Source of the DNA: Zychaea mexicana | Lineage: Eukaryota > Mucoromycota > Mucoromycetes > Mucorales > Lichtheimiaceae | DNA: 64,000 nt | Assembly: GCF_025766255.1 (NCBI RefSeq) | Contig: NW_026516727.1 | Location: 1-64,000 of the forward strand | Reading direction: 5' to 3' | Part shown: positions 36,950-44,094 of the stretch, piece after piece | Position numbering within the stretch: the first letter of the stretch is position 1 | How the letters are laid out: every line of letters begins with the position of its first letter | Notes under the pieces: generated by a model | Seen by the model: only the letters and a program-made list of their open reading frames with translations | Databases searched by the model: none | Told to the model about the DNA's origin: nothing | Program-made: the position numbers and the translations under genes

Positions 36950-37323
36950 TCGAAAAGGGAACTCGTAGCACCGACAAGAATATAATGCATGACAACCCAG
37001 CGCGACTAGACCGCACCACCGAAAAGAAAACTCGCAACTGGCAGTAGCCGCCGGATAAAGATACTACACACAGGTCCAGTTGGAACTGCGGAACACCGAC
37101 AAGGACCATCGAAAAGGGAACTCGTAGCCCCCGGCCCGGCATTTGGTGGTGGGAATTGGGACGAGGCCCGGGGCGGATCGAAAAGGGAACTCGTAGTCCC
37201 GCCAGTCTTTGGTGATGATGGTCAAGACGGAACCGGGCGGGTCGAAAAGGGAACTCGTAGCCCCATGAGCGTTTGGTGGTGGGATTGGGACGAAGGGGAG
37301 GCCCTCGAAAAGGGAACTCGTGG
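36950..37323. repeat. Six-copy tandem repeat with a 19-nt core
   Basis: The core TCGAAAAGGGAACTCGTAG occurs exactly at 36950, 37109, 37178 and 37242, with one mismatch at 37305 and several at 37019. Spacings are 69, 90, 69, 64 and 63. Part of the spacer is also shared: TTTGGTGGTGGGAATTGGGACGA-like sequence follows the cores at 37109 and 37242, and a weaker version follows 37178. On the minus strand the core reads as LRVPFS, and five of the six copies sit in two blocks of one consistent frame separated by a single-base shift. It is therefore either a decayed protein repeat or a structured/non-coding repeat. Confidence 0.85.
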
Positions 37324-38046
37324 TTCCATTCGGCGATGGTGGAGAGACTGGGCAGGCCGGCGCGCGCATAAGATGATCAATAAAAAAAATTTAACCGAGT
37401 CCAAGCCAGGAGCAGGGAGCCCTTGCTACTTTCCTACTTTTTAAGACGGAACAAGCGTTAAAGAAAGCTTAAAAGACAAATGATGATGAGTCAAGGGAAA
37501 CCCTCGCTCCTTTAATACTTACAGTTTCAAGTCCAAAAAACCCCTCATCTGCTTTGTCGAAGGCCACATACAACCAAGAAAAAAAAAGAGCGAAAGCTGA
37601 CGGAAATATTATATTTGAGCGAGGGAGAAAAACAGAGAGCAAGATAGAGATAGCAAGGCTCTTGTTCGTGCCGGGTAATGAGGGGATGTTAAAGAAGCTT
37701 ACATCGGCGGTAAAGAAGGTAAAAGAGAAGAAAGCTGCGACCTACAGTCCAGCTCCTTGCGCGTTATACAGCACCGCTTTTCTTCACTTAAAAGCCAGCC
37801 AGCCAATCGAGTTGTATTGAACAAATTAATGATGACGTTTCTTCCTTACTTTGGCTTGGGTAACATGAATGAGGTTGGTCAAAATAATTTTTCCACAAAT
37901 GTAGACAGTGTATTAGTGATGATTTCAAATGTTTCAAAACAGTCATAGAAAATAGATTTAATACTTACTCCAGAGTCCGTGGCTTCCGCGCTGAGTAAAA
38001 GCACTGTCCTCTTGGCCCCAAGATACAATCGTAGTGGAATTTTCGA
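37324..38046. other. 3' flank of the Fanzor gene
   Basis: No confident gene. A Lys-rich + strand open run (about 37554-37820) has no domain. If this Fanzor uses a 3'-overlapping guide RNA as its bacterial TnpB relatives do, the guide would be transcribed from the minus strand across or just beyond 38047, in this stretch. Confidence 0.3.
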
Positions 38047-41000
38047 CTAATTCCTATCATTTTCTAATGCTAAAATATTGTTTTCCGGTTCCTCCGGTTC
38101 TTCTTGATCTTCTTGAAGTTGCGCTTGCTGAGGGAGCTGTCCACCTGGTGGTAGGAATGCCTCTGGTCGAAAGTCTGGATGTCCATCATTATTCATATAG
38201 GCTATGCCTATGCTTCTTATGTTCAATGCCGCATTTTTATCCCGGTCTACAATCTAGATGAGAAAACAAAACTCTTTTAGCATATGATAGGCAGAATCCT
38301 TCGTGGGTTTAAAGGGTGAAAACATACCACAGCCTTTGGATAAAGCTCTGGATGGTTATTACAAGCTTTAATCTTCCACATCACCCAATCTATTATGGTA
38401 TTCCATGCCAATTTAGTACAGCAGAACACAACTACTGATTATATACCTTATTAGTAGAAATTTGCCTTTACCTGGCGGTGGTGGGCGTGCCTGTATACAG
38501 TCACTTGCCGGATTCAGCAAATTGCCATCCTGGTCTCGACAGTACTTTATTTCCCTTCCCCTCTTTGGAATGAAGCCGCCTTGAGGTCCTTCAACCCAGT
38601 ACGTTGCACGTTCTCTTGTTTTTCTGCATGGATACATAGGTAAAAATGATCCCGTCAGTCGTTATAAGTGGGCCTCCTTAAAGCGGGAATTATGTATAGC
38701 AATCAGATATTATATTATTACGTACCTGTGTCCGCAAACCTCCCCGTCATATGGAATACTTGTTAGCCGTTGCTGACACCCTGCGTGAACTTGAGAAGTG
38801 TTGTACTCGTCCGTCAGTATCAGCAGCATGTGTGAAGCCAATTTTTTAATAAGTCCCTAAAATATACATTACTCATAAGTGTATGGCAACCTCTTTGCGC
38901 ATTCTCTCTTGTAAATATACTAACCAAATGGGGGATCGGGGCCCATCCCGGGAAATGCGGCATTCTGCTGGAGCCATAGAACACAATCGTTGGTTGTTGA
39001 TTTGGGTGCCAACGCTCGCGTTCTCGCCTCAAGCGGGCAGCTCTTTTGCGAGATCGGTGCGACGATTTGTGTATCCATTTGATAGGCTCTCCCTATGTTT
39101 CAGTTTTTCAAAAATGATCATCAGCAAAAAAAAAAAGAAAAAAGAGTATTATCAGATATCACGCGAGAAAAATGGAAAAAGGGAATCGCTTACAGCTGGG
39201 TGAGGAGGAGTGACACCTAGCAGCTCATCTTTGACAAGATCTTGTTTTCTCTGCCGGCTTGAGAATAACAAGCTCCTGATTTCTCTGTTTGCTTGTATTC
39301 TTCTGGTGGTGCATGCCTTGAAAGCAATATAACGCCTTTGCTCGACATAGCTGTTTGAACCCAGACGAGAAACGACGCATTCTATATTCTTGCCGTTATT
39401 ATATGCCCTTGTCACCAACTCGCCTAGCATTGATAAGCCCTTCTTCTCCTTCCTTCTCCTTCCTGCTACTTACCGAAGTCGAATTCGATTCAGATTAGCG
39501 ATATAGAAAAGAAAATCTTCTGAACGTGAGACATAGGGCGAGTTCTCTGCGATGGAGTCATAATCCTCTTGGATTTCGGCTTTCTGCCGATTTTTGTTTT
39601 CTAATTTATATTCCCAAAAGACACCCGTCTCCGCACTTTGCATTGATTTTTTTTAGTCAAGAGCTCAATGTAGTGTGAGGCTTATCTATTATATACTCTT
39701 TTTCAAGATAACTTACTGGTACTTTCGCGTGGTAACTTCAATTGGGTTGTGTACAGGTTCTTCAGCAGTCGATACTCCTGTGATCATCGACGATACACCT
39801 ATATCATCAATTACAAACGTAAAAATCAGTGGGAAAGAAATGATGCAACAAGCCCGCAAACTATTGTACTCTCCGTAGTACGCCATACCAGGATCGACTC
39901 CAACAATTCGACTTTCTTCGGCACGCTGCTGAGTTAGGCCATCCGGATTCAACTCGAGTCTGTATACACCATGGCTCCAATATGTTAAGTCTTGACCTTC
40001 GGGAAGGCGTCTAATTTCATCGTGTGTACTAGGAAATAATTCTTCATGGCGTGTACATAGTATTGTTTTGTCGTCAGCGTGACATTCAGCTTTAGCTTAC
40101 AAACTCCAAATTATTAAAGCAGGATTTATGCTTGCCTGGACTATTCCCGATAAACTTTTCGAACTGGACGTGTACCATACATCCATCCGTAGTCGCTGTA
40201 TGCTTGAAGCTTAGCGCGTTGTGTGCAAAGGGGTTTTGATCTATAAAAAATCGTATAAAAAGGATCAGGATGCGCATATACATAGAATGTATAATATTAT
40301 TCGCTAGCCACCACTAAAAGCACTCACAATCTTGACCGTATCGGCGGCGGTTTGGTTTTATGTGATCAATATCGAAAACCTTTTCCCATAGCTCCTGGCA
40401 CCAGAGCGGATTGCTTTCGAGTTGTCTGCATCTTGAAATCGACAACGGTGACCCGCCCTATACACACACAGAAATATAAGAGTAAGATTACAAACACTAA
40501 TGTATGGGAGAAGCAAAGATACAAAAGCTGACCAATACCTCTGCGAGCAATATGAGCGGTGCCGGATTATTTCGCTTCTCCATTCGTGCTCTTCTCACCA
40601 ACAAATACAAAGTATGAGTATCCAACCGAAAGAACCCCGTTTGATGGGAACCTAATGGCAATAGTGGCCAAGGGCGTGCTCGTGGATAAGTTCGTTCGGA
40701 ATATTGAAGCAGGTCGTACGACAAATGCAGAAGGGAGATGCATAAATCTTCTCCCATGTTGCGAGACCGCAAACGAGTTATGTCTGTGTCATGGAGCAGC
40801 TCTTGAAAGCGACCATGAATGAAGTTATCAACCAGTTCACAAGAAAGAATCAACATATATATCGCAAACTGTTATCCTGTTTAATATAAGCTTACCGATA
40901 CAGTCTTCCCAATGATTGATCATGAACTACATTGTTGGGATAGTCGGCTTCATGGTTCAAAATGTTACTTGTTAATACTCGTGCTGTTCCGACATGATAT

Positions 41001-42063
41001 TAGGACAACGAGTTTCGTAATGTATCATATTGACTAGTAAGCACAATAATATGCATATGTGGGATTCTTTCTACCTGCTCTTTCCAGTTGATTTCGGTTG
41101 TGTAGGAGTTGTTGTAAAGCACCCTTCCAAACTCGGTTCATGTAATTCTTGATATTTAGGACATGCTCTCTCATATCTGACATAAAATAAAAACGATGAG
41201 CTATCATATCTATTTTCCTTAGTTTCATAGTGCTTTTATATTCTGTACTTGAGCCATACTTTGCAGCGCCATGACAGCAAAATTGTTTGCTAGCGAATCT
41301 CTCAATGACCCAGGAGCAATATCCTCTGGCTCGAAGTATTCTAATATATCATACAGTACACATGCATCAAATAAAACAACGTTTAAACCATTGTCACTGA
41401 TATACTGCTCTGTTAGTTTTTAAATTGAAATGTTGCAATCACTTACGTTCATTATTGTGTGGGTTAGTTCTTTCTGCGACAAAGATTGCTGCCGTGCGCA
41501 TTAGGTCTTCTTTCCATGGTAGCTATTGGATTATCGGATATTAGCACGAATTTTGGAATAAATATGTAGATATATATTGAACATACAGGAGGAACTCACG
41601 TTCAAAAAGAATCCTGGTAATTCGTCGTGTAATCCGTACGAAAGCACTTTGAACGCAATGACCCAAAAGCCTTGCAAAAACAACGGAGGTGCATTATGAT
41701 AATAACCCTCAAAGTGACGCCTGAGGTGCAAAGAAACAAGATTGTAAACATCTTGTTTTCGGAAAGAAACCAGTTCTGATGTTTGTCTTAGGATCGTCTA
41801 CAAAAAAGATGTACAATCATCAGCCTCAATATTCAGGAAGGATAATAATAAGCTAAGGAAGTTAAAAGTGAACGTACTCGGAAAAAGTGGTATTCGCCAT
41901 GAAGAAATGCTCTGACCGAGCAAGGTCGAGTTACGACCCGCGTTCTCTCGCCAAAGCCGTTGAACTCTACAAACGGCTCTGGGATAGCTGGAACAGGCTC
42001 TTGGACAACGGGAGGAGGGGGTTCTTTAGGGATCTGTGGAGGCTCTTCAACAACTGATGACAT
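38047..42063 (-). CDS. Fanzor: eukaryotic TnpB-like RNA-guided nuclease
   Basis: Predicted 878 residues from 18 minus-strand exons with unbroken frame: 42063-41878, 41797-41600, 41522-41447, 41340-41260, 41176-41075, 40983-40931, 40868-40539, 40457-40328, 40240-40105, 40028-39862, 39798-39717, 39635-39474, 39407-39194, 39092-38925, 38856-38726, 38623-38472, 38389-38328 and 38253-38047. Fanzor marks: WPLLPLGSHQTGFFRLDTHTL, FKHTATTDGCMVHVQF (residues 397-412), RuvC-I VGVDPGM (Asp476), FYGSSRMPHFPGWAPIPH (677-694; Gly679 where TnpB has the RuvC-II Glu), LTDEYNTSQVHAGC (Glu712, the relocated glutamate) with a Cys736/His738 second half of the zinc finger, and RuvC-III IVDRDKNAALNI (Asp813/Asp815). 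The N-terminus is Pro/Glu-rich. Least certain junctions: exon 6/7 (GTAGTT donor), 9/10 (GTTTGT) and 10/11 (GTTTGC). Known Fanzors cut DNA guided by an RNA encoded at their 3' end; activity here is inferred. No terminal inverted repeats were seen. Confidence 0.9.
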
Positions 42064-42120
42064 GCGTATTTTAAGAATGGGAGAGATTTGGAAAGAGCCG
42101 AAAAAGAAAGAAACTGATGG

Positions 42121-42127
42121 TTTTATA
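42121..42127 (-). promoter_or_regulatory. TATA box of the Fanzor gene
   Basis: TATAAAA on the minus strand, 58 bases upstream of the chosen ATG at 42063. An in-frame ATG at 42147 lies upstream of this box, so the shorter start is preferred. Confidence 0.55.
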
Positions 42128-42630
42128 CGGTGAGGTGATGGTTTCATGCAAAGTTGTCATTCTCATGGGACCATTGTATATGTATATCATATGACGTGTT
42201 GATTTAGCTCAGAGGCATGCTTTGAATATTCATGTTATCGGCTTACCATACAGAGCAGGAAGTGCAGCGCGCATGAATGATTTGGTACATAAAGTGTCCT
42301 CATTGTCATCCACGAGGGTTCGGCTGTTAAGACAGAAAATTATCAAACAATAAAGAAATGTATCCGCACTGGAATGAGCTTCGACGAATGCGTTTTATTA
42401 TCCGTGATGGCAAATAGAATAAGAACAAGTTGTTGTTCTTTCAGTGATAAATAGGTCCACTTCAATCCGAGTTTATATCAAGTCATGCCGAGTGTTGCTC
42501 CTTCCTCTTTCCCAATCGCCCACCGCACGCCAGCTTCGTTTTGCTCAAAAAGAATGCATGGTAAGTTACAATAGAAGCAAATGAGGACTTCCCAAGTAGT
42601 AGACAGTAACCCTCTGTATTTTTTTCCCAG
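42128..42630. other. Divergent spacer between Fanzor and SANT-like gene
   Basis: AT-rich bidirectional promoter region. A likely leader exon for the + strand gene ends with a GTAAGT donor at 42561 and rejoins at 42631. No separate gene seen. Confidence 0.45.
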
Positions 42631-43468
42631 ATGACCAAGTCAACTACCAAAGATCCTTTCGCTGATCAAGAAGTGACTGCATGGAAGTCGCAAAAGGCTC
42701 GCGCCTGGGAGCAACGGCATATGGTACGAGTAAGAAAAAGGAAATCACAGAAACTTGTGCTCACTCATACATCTCTTTTAGAATGCGGAACAGTATTATC
42801 TTCACCATGTGGATCCAGGCACGATGATTAACATTGGACAATTTAATGTTGCAGAAAAGGAACAATTTCAAGAAAGGCTTCACGAATGGGAGGAGAGAAA
42901 TCTCGTCCAGAGTTCTACGTGGGGGGCATTTTCTCTTTCAATACCAGGCAGGACTGGAGTACAGTGCCGCGAACGCTACAAAAACATGGTCAAGGAAGGG
43001 TATACAAGCAGTTCAAACAAATCTTCATCCATAACTACTGCGGCACTGCCTGACACTGAATTATCCGAGTCGTGGGAAACCCAGGAAACACGACAACTCG
43101 AGAACCACATCGACTGCATTCATCAGCAATCGCATGGAAAGAGGTACTCCTTTTCTACTGTTGTTTACCGGGGGTTTCGATGAACTAAGAGTATGATAAT
43201 CTAAAACGTTCTGTCCTGGAAAACGCGAAGCCAAGTGACATCAACATCAGCGGCCAGACAAGCAGTCGAACTACAAACAAATGGCTTGCCAGTTGATTCC
43301 AAAATACCACCAGCTCCAGCCCATCGACCCATACGTCCAAAGAAAGACGTGCCCATTTTGTTAAAAAGTCTTCTGAAAAAAGCTAAAGTCGCTTCTCTTG
43401 TTTTTGAAACAGCTACCAACAAAAAGAGGAACACCCAACAAGCAAGACCAACAAGTGAAAAGAGTTAG
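42631..43468 (+). CDS. SANT/Myb-like domain protein
   Basis: Predicted 230 residues from exons 42631-42723, 42782-43143 and 43231-43468. The middle exon holds a segment common in fungal Myb-like proteins: EQYYLHHVDPGTMINIGQF followed by EKEQFQERLHEWEE and a SANT-like helix block STWGAFSLSIPGRTGVQCRE with RYKNMVKEG. The remainder is Ser/Thr-rich, ending in a Lys-rich tail (LLKSLLKKAKVASLV). Probably nuclear and DNA- or chromatin-binding, but no target can be named. The ATG at 42631 directly follows a CAG acceptor, so a 5' untranslated exon ending at 42560 (which itself ends in ATG) is likely. The last acceptor (GCGAAG at 43230) is weak; if it is not used the protein ends at 43183. Confidence 0.65.
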
Positions 43469-44094
43469 ATTAGTCCTGTCACAAAAATCTATGAATTTGG
43501 ATGAATAAAAGTCTTCTGTTATTATAGTACTGGGAGTGGGATAAAGACAAATAAGCACTTTTCAAAACTTAATGCCTGTATGTGCTTCATTGTCATTCAT
43601 TTACTGAACGAGTATCTTCGATATGTCATTGTCCCCATTAAAAAAGTATATGACATATTTGTCAAAGCTCAGCTTTATTGGATATTAAGGTCTAATTTCA
43701 TTGGCTCGCCCAGCCTCATACGTACTATTCCTGCCTTACTTTGCATGAATTTCCCAATCACACTGCGTACTGTCCAGGGAACCAACCACCTGCTGTAATG
43801 ATTATATGAGTGATGGTAAACAATACAACAAGGGTAATAGCTGCAAAGGTGCGGGAGATGATACTTATCGTCCGATGATCACTTTGCCAGGAGGAGGCGT
43901 TTATGCAACACGAAGATCACCTTTTTCCTCCTTTAGATTATCAAACGTATAAAGTTGTCAATAGCCCCTGAGGCTCATCGATGTGTACATATGTTCACAC
44001 GGTTTTTATCATATACACTATCAAAGCTGTACCAACCCATATCCTGGCATGGCCATTTTTTTACAAAATGGCAAGTAAAGGCTAATAAAGTCTT
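43469..44094. other. Spacer
   Basis: No gene seen; AT-rich sequence with short open runs only. Confidence 0.45.

Follow-up and report, generated by a model that had tools for sequence, protein, structure and literature searches.

A Probable Degenerate Copy of a Fanzor1-like DNA Transposon in the Genome of the Fungus Zychaea mexicana

Introduction

Fanzors cut DNA under the direction of a guide RNA, the 3′ flank of the element serving as the guide, according to PMC10432273. The Fanzor fingerprint, as given in PMC10711439, combines a DPG motif with a glutamate placed six residues before a zinc finger. That source also predicts that, in Fanzor1s from insect viruses, the scaffold of the guide RNA includes the target duplication. 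Fanzor1 DNA transposons published for Mucorales-type fungi feature inverted ends of MuDR-like appearance and 9-bp target duplications, and carry no transposase of their own. The MCi-2 Fanzor elements of Mucor circinelloides have no inverted ends, generate duplications of 11–12 bp in which variable bases come after a fixed 5′ portion, ATAATTNNNN(N), and in some cases contain a partial Crypton transposase.

The locus described here lies in a 64,000-nucleotide stretch of the genome of Zychaea mexicana (contig NW_026516727.1, positions 1 to 64000), referred to as the window. It is very probably a decayed member of a family of Fanzor1-like DNA transposons, its Fanzor gene being disrupted at the acceptor of intron 6 and in exon 13. 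The family to which it belongs is new in detail and known in kind, and is Fanzor1-like. The published transposons of Mucorales-type fungi resemble it in their inverted ends and in the lack of their own transposase, whereas the present family differs in the 8-bp duplication starting with CAA and in the presence of a Myb-like gene. Unlike MCi-2 in its ends, duplication length and Crypton content, it can be compared with those elements in the layout of the duplication, which is CAAANNNN in the window family.

The Element and Its Copies

A comparison of the window with 13 other loci of the same genome (50.3 Mb, 305 contigs) using blastn revealed one unit common to them. The limits of this 5.9-kb transposon, established with blastn, ends and flanks, are positions 37854 to 43735 on the minus strand, with the left end GGCAGGAATAG at 43735 and the right end TTACCCAAGC at 37854. 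The left (43706–43735) and right (37854–37883) inverted ends, both given for the minus strand, are imperfect inverted repeats agreeing at 19 of 30 positions. No transposase was recognised in the element. Diverged direct repeats with CTACGAGTTCCCTTTTCGA and self-matches of 72–80% are found just outside the element, at 36950–37352.

The element belongs to a small family, some members of which are derivatives with internal deletions. According to blastn, loci L026, L027 and L028 are end-to-end copies, L025 comprises the 3′ part and L037 the 5′ part, and L033–L036 are partial. The four loci L029–L032 have the same internal deletion, in which position 43374 is joined to 39646, with a second deletion in L032; since one deletion is common to all four, the derivative seems to have been mobilised. 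Genome matches numbered at least 12 for the right end and at least 11, at 10 sites, for the left end; the right end at L047, missed by the first pattern, was added to the later count. At L058 (C2) and L032 (C305), the left end seems to give way to other sequence after its initial 11 bases and then to continue with its remaining part.

Four long copies are 97.2–98.6% identical, differing by 1.4–2.8%, and the family was therefore mobile recently. The sites variable among them amount to 36/829 at first, 20/830 at second and 39/830 at third codon positions of the Fanzor gene, and to 68/1368 in introns. These proportions hint weakly that the source genes were under constraint before they decayed.

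Structure of the Fanzor-Type Gene

The Fanzor1-like gene occupies positions 42063 to 38047 on the minus strand and, as an earlier note on this DNA had stated, is a multi-exon gene with 18 exons. The model is based on exon modelling, sibling copies and the homolog P0001 described below. Exons 1–6 were placed at 42063–41878, 41797–41600, 41522–41447, 41340–41260, 41176–41075 and 40983–40896; exons 7–12 at 40824–40539 (starting from the acceptor used by the siblings), 40457–40328, 40240–40136, 40095–39889, 39798–39717 and 39635–39474; and exons 13–18 at 39384–39194 (sibling acceptor, with an insert inside), 39092–38925, 38856–38726, 38623–38472, 38389–38328 and 38253–38047. The gene thus has 17 introns and is located beside a Myb-like partner in the same element. 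The introns are of the GT-AG type, save intron 9, which is GC-AG in 5/5 copies compared, and intron 6, the acceptor of which is lost in the window. The exon 7 start set by the sibling acceptor yields FIHGRFQELLH, which aligns with P0001; a start at 40801 was dropped, as stops result. A multi-exon gene assembled by chance is excluded because P0001 aligns over 92% of the protein (E = 8.1e-145).

The sibling-type exon set comprises 2550 coding bases including the stop, and reading through the window gene gives 859 residues, foreign insert included, instead of the 878 codons reported earlier. All residue numbers below refer to this 859-residue reading with the insert. The motifs TTDGCMVHV, DEYNTSQVHAGC and DRDKNAALNI are present as previously claimed; in the motif given as VGVDPGM, the methionine falls in intron 10, and the spliced form is VGVDPGVSSMI (VGVDPGLSSMI in P0001).

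Protein Motifs and Homologs

The protein possesses the DPG feature of RuvC-I (D485-P-G; codons at 39889–39895, minus strand, with the glycine codon split by intron 10). It also has the glutamate in the alternative RuvC-II position at the start of the zinc finger (E693-YNTSQV-H700AGC703; EYNTSQVHAGC at 38776–38808, minus strand), and this arrangement is kept in P0001, P0003 and P0004. After the finger follows the RD feature of RuvC-III (RDKNAALN, D796; aspartate codon at 38239–38241, minus strand). Carriage by a eukaryotic transposable element, another Fanzor feature, is likewise found at this locus. The finger starts with H-A-G-C instead of the C-x-x-C of a C4 finger, and the protein is for this reason labelled Fanzor1-like with a variant finger.

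SpuFz1, GtFz1 and PpFz1, as presented in PMC10432273 and PMC11423790, have a D-E-D triad layout like that of the window protein, judged by motif. A PDB sequence search with the window protein gave no match to any chain. With the PF07282 profile it scores 11.7 bits against a curated cut-off of 26.3 (P0001: 14.3), and a search of the NCBIfam profiles with it gave no match. Since curated profiles miss the protein, surveys based on profiles may undercount Fanzor-type proteins of fungi.

A near full-length homolog, P0001, is present in Fennellomyces sp. T-0311 (Mucorales, Lichtheimiaceae) and has 38% identity to the window protein, or 38–40% depending on the alignment. A protein search with alignment A1 gave no match and missed even P0001, possibly owing to proline-rich words that took up the list of candidates. 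AlphaFold2 modelling of P0001 from a 14-row alignment resulted in a mean pLDDT of 38.2. A region search with P0001 uncovered five more relatives (P0002–P0006) in Fennellomyces sp. T-0311. Compared with the window protein, 5/6 of the Fennellomyces proteins share the H-x-x-C finger start, the exception being the poorly aligned P0005. DPG occurs in 4/6, the others being without the stretch or reading otherwise, and the alternative glutamate in 3/6 gene models, several of which are partial.

The Zychaea genome also harbors a larger sister Fanzor family, L066, located on at least 11 contigs (reference L066 1-4501 = C117:44900-49400), the copies of which are mostly 88–100% identical per matched segment. 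L066 and the window protein share five matching segments in collinear order (E = 1e-10, 3e-7, 5e-4, 0.007 and 0.05), within which their identity is about 22–37%. The two have DPG, the alternative glutamate and RD in common (DPG, E-x6-CSAC and RDNNAARN in L066), whereas the canonical C-x-x-C finger is found in L066 only and is replaced by H-x-x-C in the window protein. The PF07282 score of L066 (E = 1.5e-4, 22.3 bits) is also under the curated value of 26.3. Four compact Fanzor/TnpB-like genes, L001–L004 (C57, C246, C79 and C295), exceed the PF07282 cut-off and contain DPG and E-x6-CxxC; L003 matches PDB entry 9b0l, “TnpB-like protein L79” (E = 3.9e-12). Profile-profile comparison of the window family with these four loci gave E = 0.45, against 0.091 for the reversed control and 0.51 for the mariner control; the alignments were too thin for a signal above the controls.

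It can be asked whether the protein is a RuvC-type nuclease from outside the Fanzor clade that is alike by motif only. The lack of any significant match to curated profiles or PDB sequences, or in profile-profile comparison, speaks for such an origin. However, the DPG motif and the E-x6-[HC]xxC spacing agree with the published fingerprint. The L066 family, collinear with the window protein at a best E of 1e-10, contains the canonical cysteines and matches PF07282 at E = 1.5e-4. We regard a non-Fanzor origin as improbable. The attribution to a Fanzor-type protein in a fungal genome, put forward in the earlier note, is thus upheld by DPG with the alternative glutamate, by RuvC-III and by the sister family.

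Disruptions of the Gene

The gene had previously been described as intact, and functional or recently functional, with one clean frame. This is unsupported for the present copy, which has lost a splice acceptor and gained a 64-bp foreign insert, and no clean frame is obtained with the splice sites kept by the siblings. The claim of an intact gene is accordingly corrected: this Fanzor copy is broken at two sites.

The first lesion is located at 40825–40826 (minus strand), where the acceptor of intron 6 reads AA at 40826-40825; it is AG in 5/5 siblings (L025, L026, L027, L028 and L037). The exon 6/7 junction, at which the loss was found, had been named beforehand as a possible weak spot. An enumeration of alternatives for intron 6 with lengths of 40–250 bases yielded seven GT/GC-AG pairs with which exon 7 stays in frame with exon 6; the GTAAGC donor of the siblings is used by 0/7.

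The second lesion is a 64-bp insert in exon 13, at 39289–39352 (minus strand), recognised from sibling comparison and genome matches. It is missing from 4/4 long siblings (L025–L028), and the blastn alignments of the deletion copies L029–L032 break at the same site; these eight loci made up the comparison, the remaining ones being without coverage of the site. The siblings read RMRRFSSGFKHREIRS at this place, with one change in L027, and P0004 reads RMRFFNAHFKHREIRA. The insert lies within a 65-base stretch that recurs at 100% identity in L062 and L063 and at 97% in L061, inside ORFs read by eye rather than by a profile as a Tc1/mariner-type transposase; it looks like templated filler DNA from break repair. 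With the siblings’ acceptor, the insert puts exon 13 of the window gene out of frame, and a stop is reached. To stay in frame, exon 13 needs a second cryptic acceptor, an AG at 39352-39351 that the alignment places within the insert. An exon 13 start at 39350, with the 64-bp stretch being ancestral and deleted in the siblings, was considered and then reversed on account of P0004 and the mariner match.

Both lesions could in principle be bypassed by cryptic splice sites, leaving this copy functional with a nearly full-length Fanzor, given the seven frame-preserving pairs around intron 6 and the AG in the insert that preserves the frame of exon 13. However, none of the seven pairs has the donor common to the siblings, each of them changes or loses the conserved stretch VVHDQSLGRLYR, and the second cryptic acceptor would swap about 10 conserved residues for 22 foreign ones. 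Function of this copy is therefore hardly credible, and a degenerate copy is the preferred reading.

The other four long copies are damaged as well. Exon 16 contains a stop in L027 and also in L025, which in addition is missing the 5′ part. Exon 6 of L026 carries a large insertion, and there are more indels elsewhere in that copy; L028 has several indels.

Myb-like Gene and Candidate Helper Element

The second gene of the element, divergent from the Fanzor gene, encodes a Myb/SANT-like protein of 230 residues (42631–43468, plus strand; exons 42631-42723, 42782-43143 and 43231-43468), with a further 5′ exon being possible. Its assignment derives from PF00249 (E = 3.5e-4; 21.1 bits, under the cut-off of 24.4) and from the frame in four copies: the three-exon reading stays open in the window copy and in L027 but is interrupted in L026 and L028. 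Strong genome matches of the protein occur only in copies of this element, with weak ones (31–34%) on C113 and at a separate place on C2.

An element on contig C102 (L064, C102:23900-30300) has a left end in common with the Fanzor transposon, its first 54 bases being 81% identical and preceded by CAATCTCT. The first 401 bases of this element are single-copy in the genome. The ORFs following the left end match DUF6729 (E = 1.4e-7), a 3′-5′ exonuclease (E = 1.6e-8) and a PIF1 helicase (E = 7.9e-40). A genome search for a right end with GCYCAATCTCT gave 35 matches, 0 of them on C102, and because the right end was not found, the element is only a candidate helper. Sequences related to the left end were also noticed at C212:1363-1384 and C258:86640-86661. 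A literature search on DUF6729 and transposons returned nothing informative among the matches listed, one on Fanzor transposons in Mucoromycota gave no match, and one combining Fanzor, Fennellomyces, Lichtheimia, Myb and introns gave nothing relevant among the matches listed.

The 3′ Non-Coding Region

The expected place for a guide RNA is the 3′ non-coding stretch of the element (37854–38046, minus strand). Folding of 255 bases at the 3′ end was no better than that of shuffled sequences (z = 0.26), folding of five pieces showed no excess (z from −0.06 to 2.37), and an Rfam search of the window gave no match at gathering scores. Within four copies, 4/197 sites of the stretch are variable versus 68/1368 in introns. 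In a count using 11 of 12 copies (L032 left out), the figures are 25/197 and 40/233, and conservation of the stretch does not significantly exceed that of introns (p = 0.22). Exon 18 in 11 copies has 15/207 variable sites, distributed as 6, 4 and 5 over the codon positions, numbers too few to argue from. RNA-guided cutting by the window family is putative.

Target Sites and Possible Mode of Transposition

The window copy is flanked by the target duplication CAAAGTAA, present on the right side at 37846–37853 and on the left side at 43736–43743 (minus strand). Perfect 8-bp duplications were found in 6/9 copies with both ends read, and not the 9-bp duplications of the MuDR type. Besides CAAAGTAA in the window, they are CAATAAAA at C13, CAAATCAG at C112, CAAAAACC at C270, CAAATTTA at C258 and CAAACACG at C2. 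The three imperfect duplications agree at 7/8 positions (C255) and at 6/8 (C81 and C305). The duplication starts with CAA at 13/13 insertion sites of the family and with CAAA at 12/13. The base ahead of it is G in 8/10 left flanks (T at C81, A at C273), and the right end of the element places a C at the base position before the duplication.

This asymmetric CAA(A) motif is a possible TAM side, with little support. The CAAA preference could belong to the transposase alone and be uninformative on the TAM of the Fanzor, a view to which we give about even weight. The motif sits within the target duplication, as a transposase predicts, and the C102 element with the same left end, carrying DUF6729 and exonuclease ORFs downstream, is preceded by CAATCTCT; a tblastn search of 6.4 kb at that locus, using the beginning of the window protein as query, detected no Fanzor. 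On the other side stands the difference between the G before the duplication in 8/10 left flanks and the C at the element’s right end. In addition, TAM and transposase motifs can coincide, because the duplication of insect-virus Fanzor1s is predicted to belong to the guide scaffold (PMC10711439).

On the preferred reading, the Fanzor protein, when whole, would have been guided by RNA from the right end of the element and the adjoining flank to chromosomal DNA of matching sequence, cutting it beside (G)CAAA, and repair after the cut would have favoured keeping or copying the element. Excision and insertion would come from a transposase supplied in trans, and the Myb-like protein would bind the element ends or regulate the element. 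If the duplication belongs to the RNA scaffold in this family too, CAA(A), being constant, could be scaffold or TAM, with the guide beginning after it, and the G ahead of CAAA at target sites as opposed to the C at the right junction could spare the element from cutting. A bolder and rather unlikely scheme sees the element as a new type of Mucorales Fanzor1 transposon with two genes, for a Fanzor with an H-x-x-C finger and for a Myb-like DNA-binding protein. It would be moved in trans by a DUF6729/exonuclease transposase that shares its left end, with (G)CAAA acting as the TAM and the right-end C letting the element's own junction escape the cut. The series of 13 insertion sites offers a basis for predicting a TAM that is testable on undamaged relatives.

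Single-base irregularities were noted at two of the termini: the left end at C270 is one G short, and the right end in the window is one C short.
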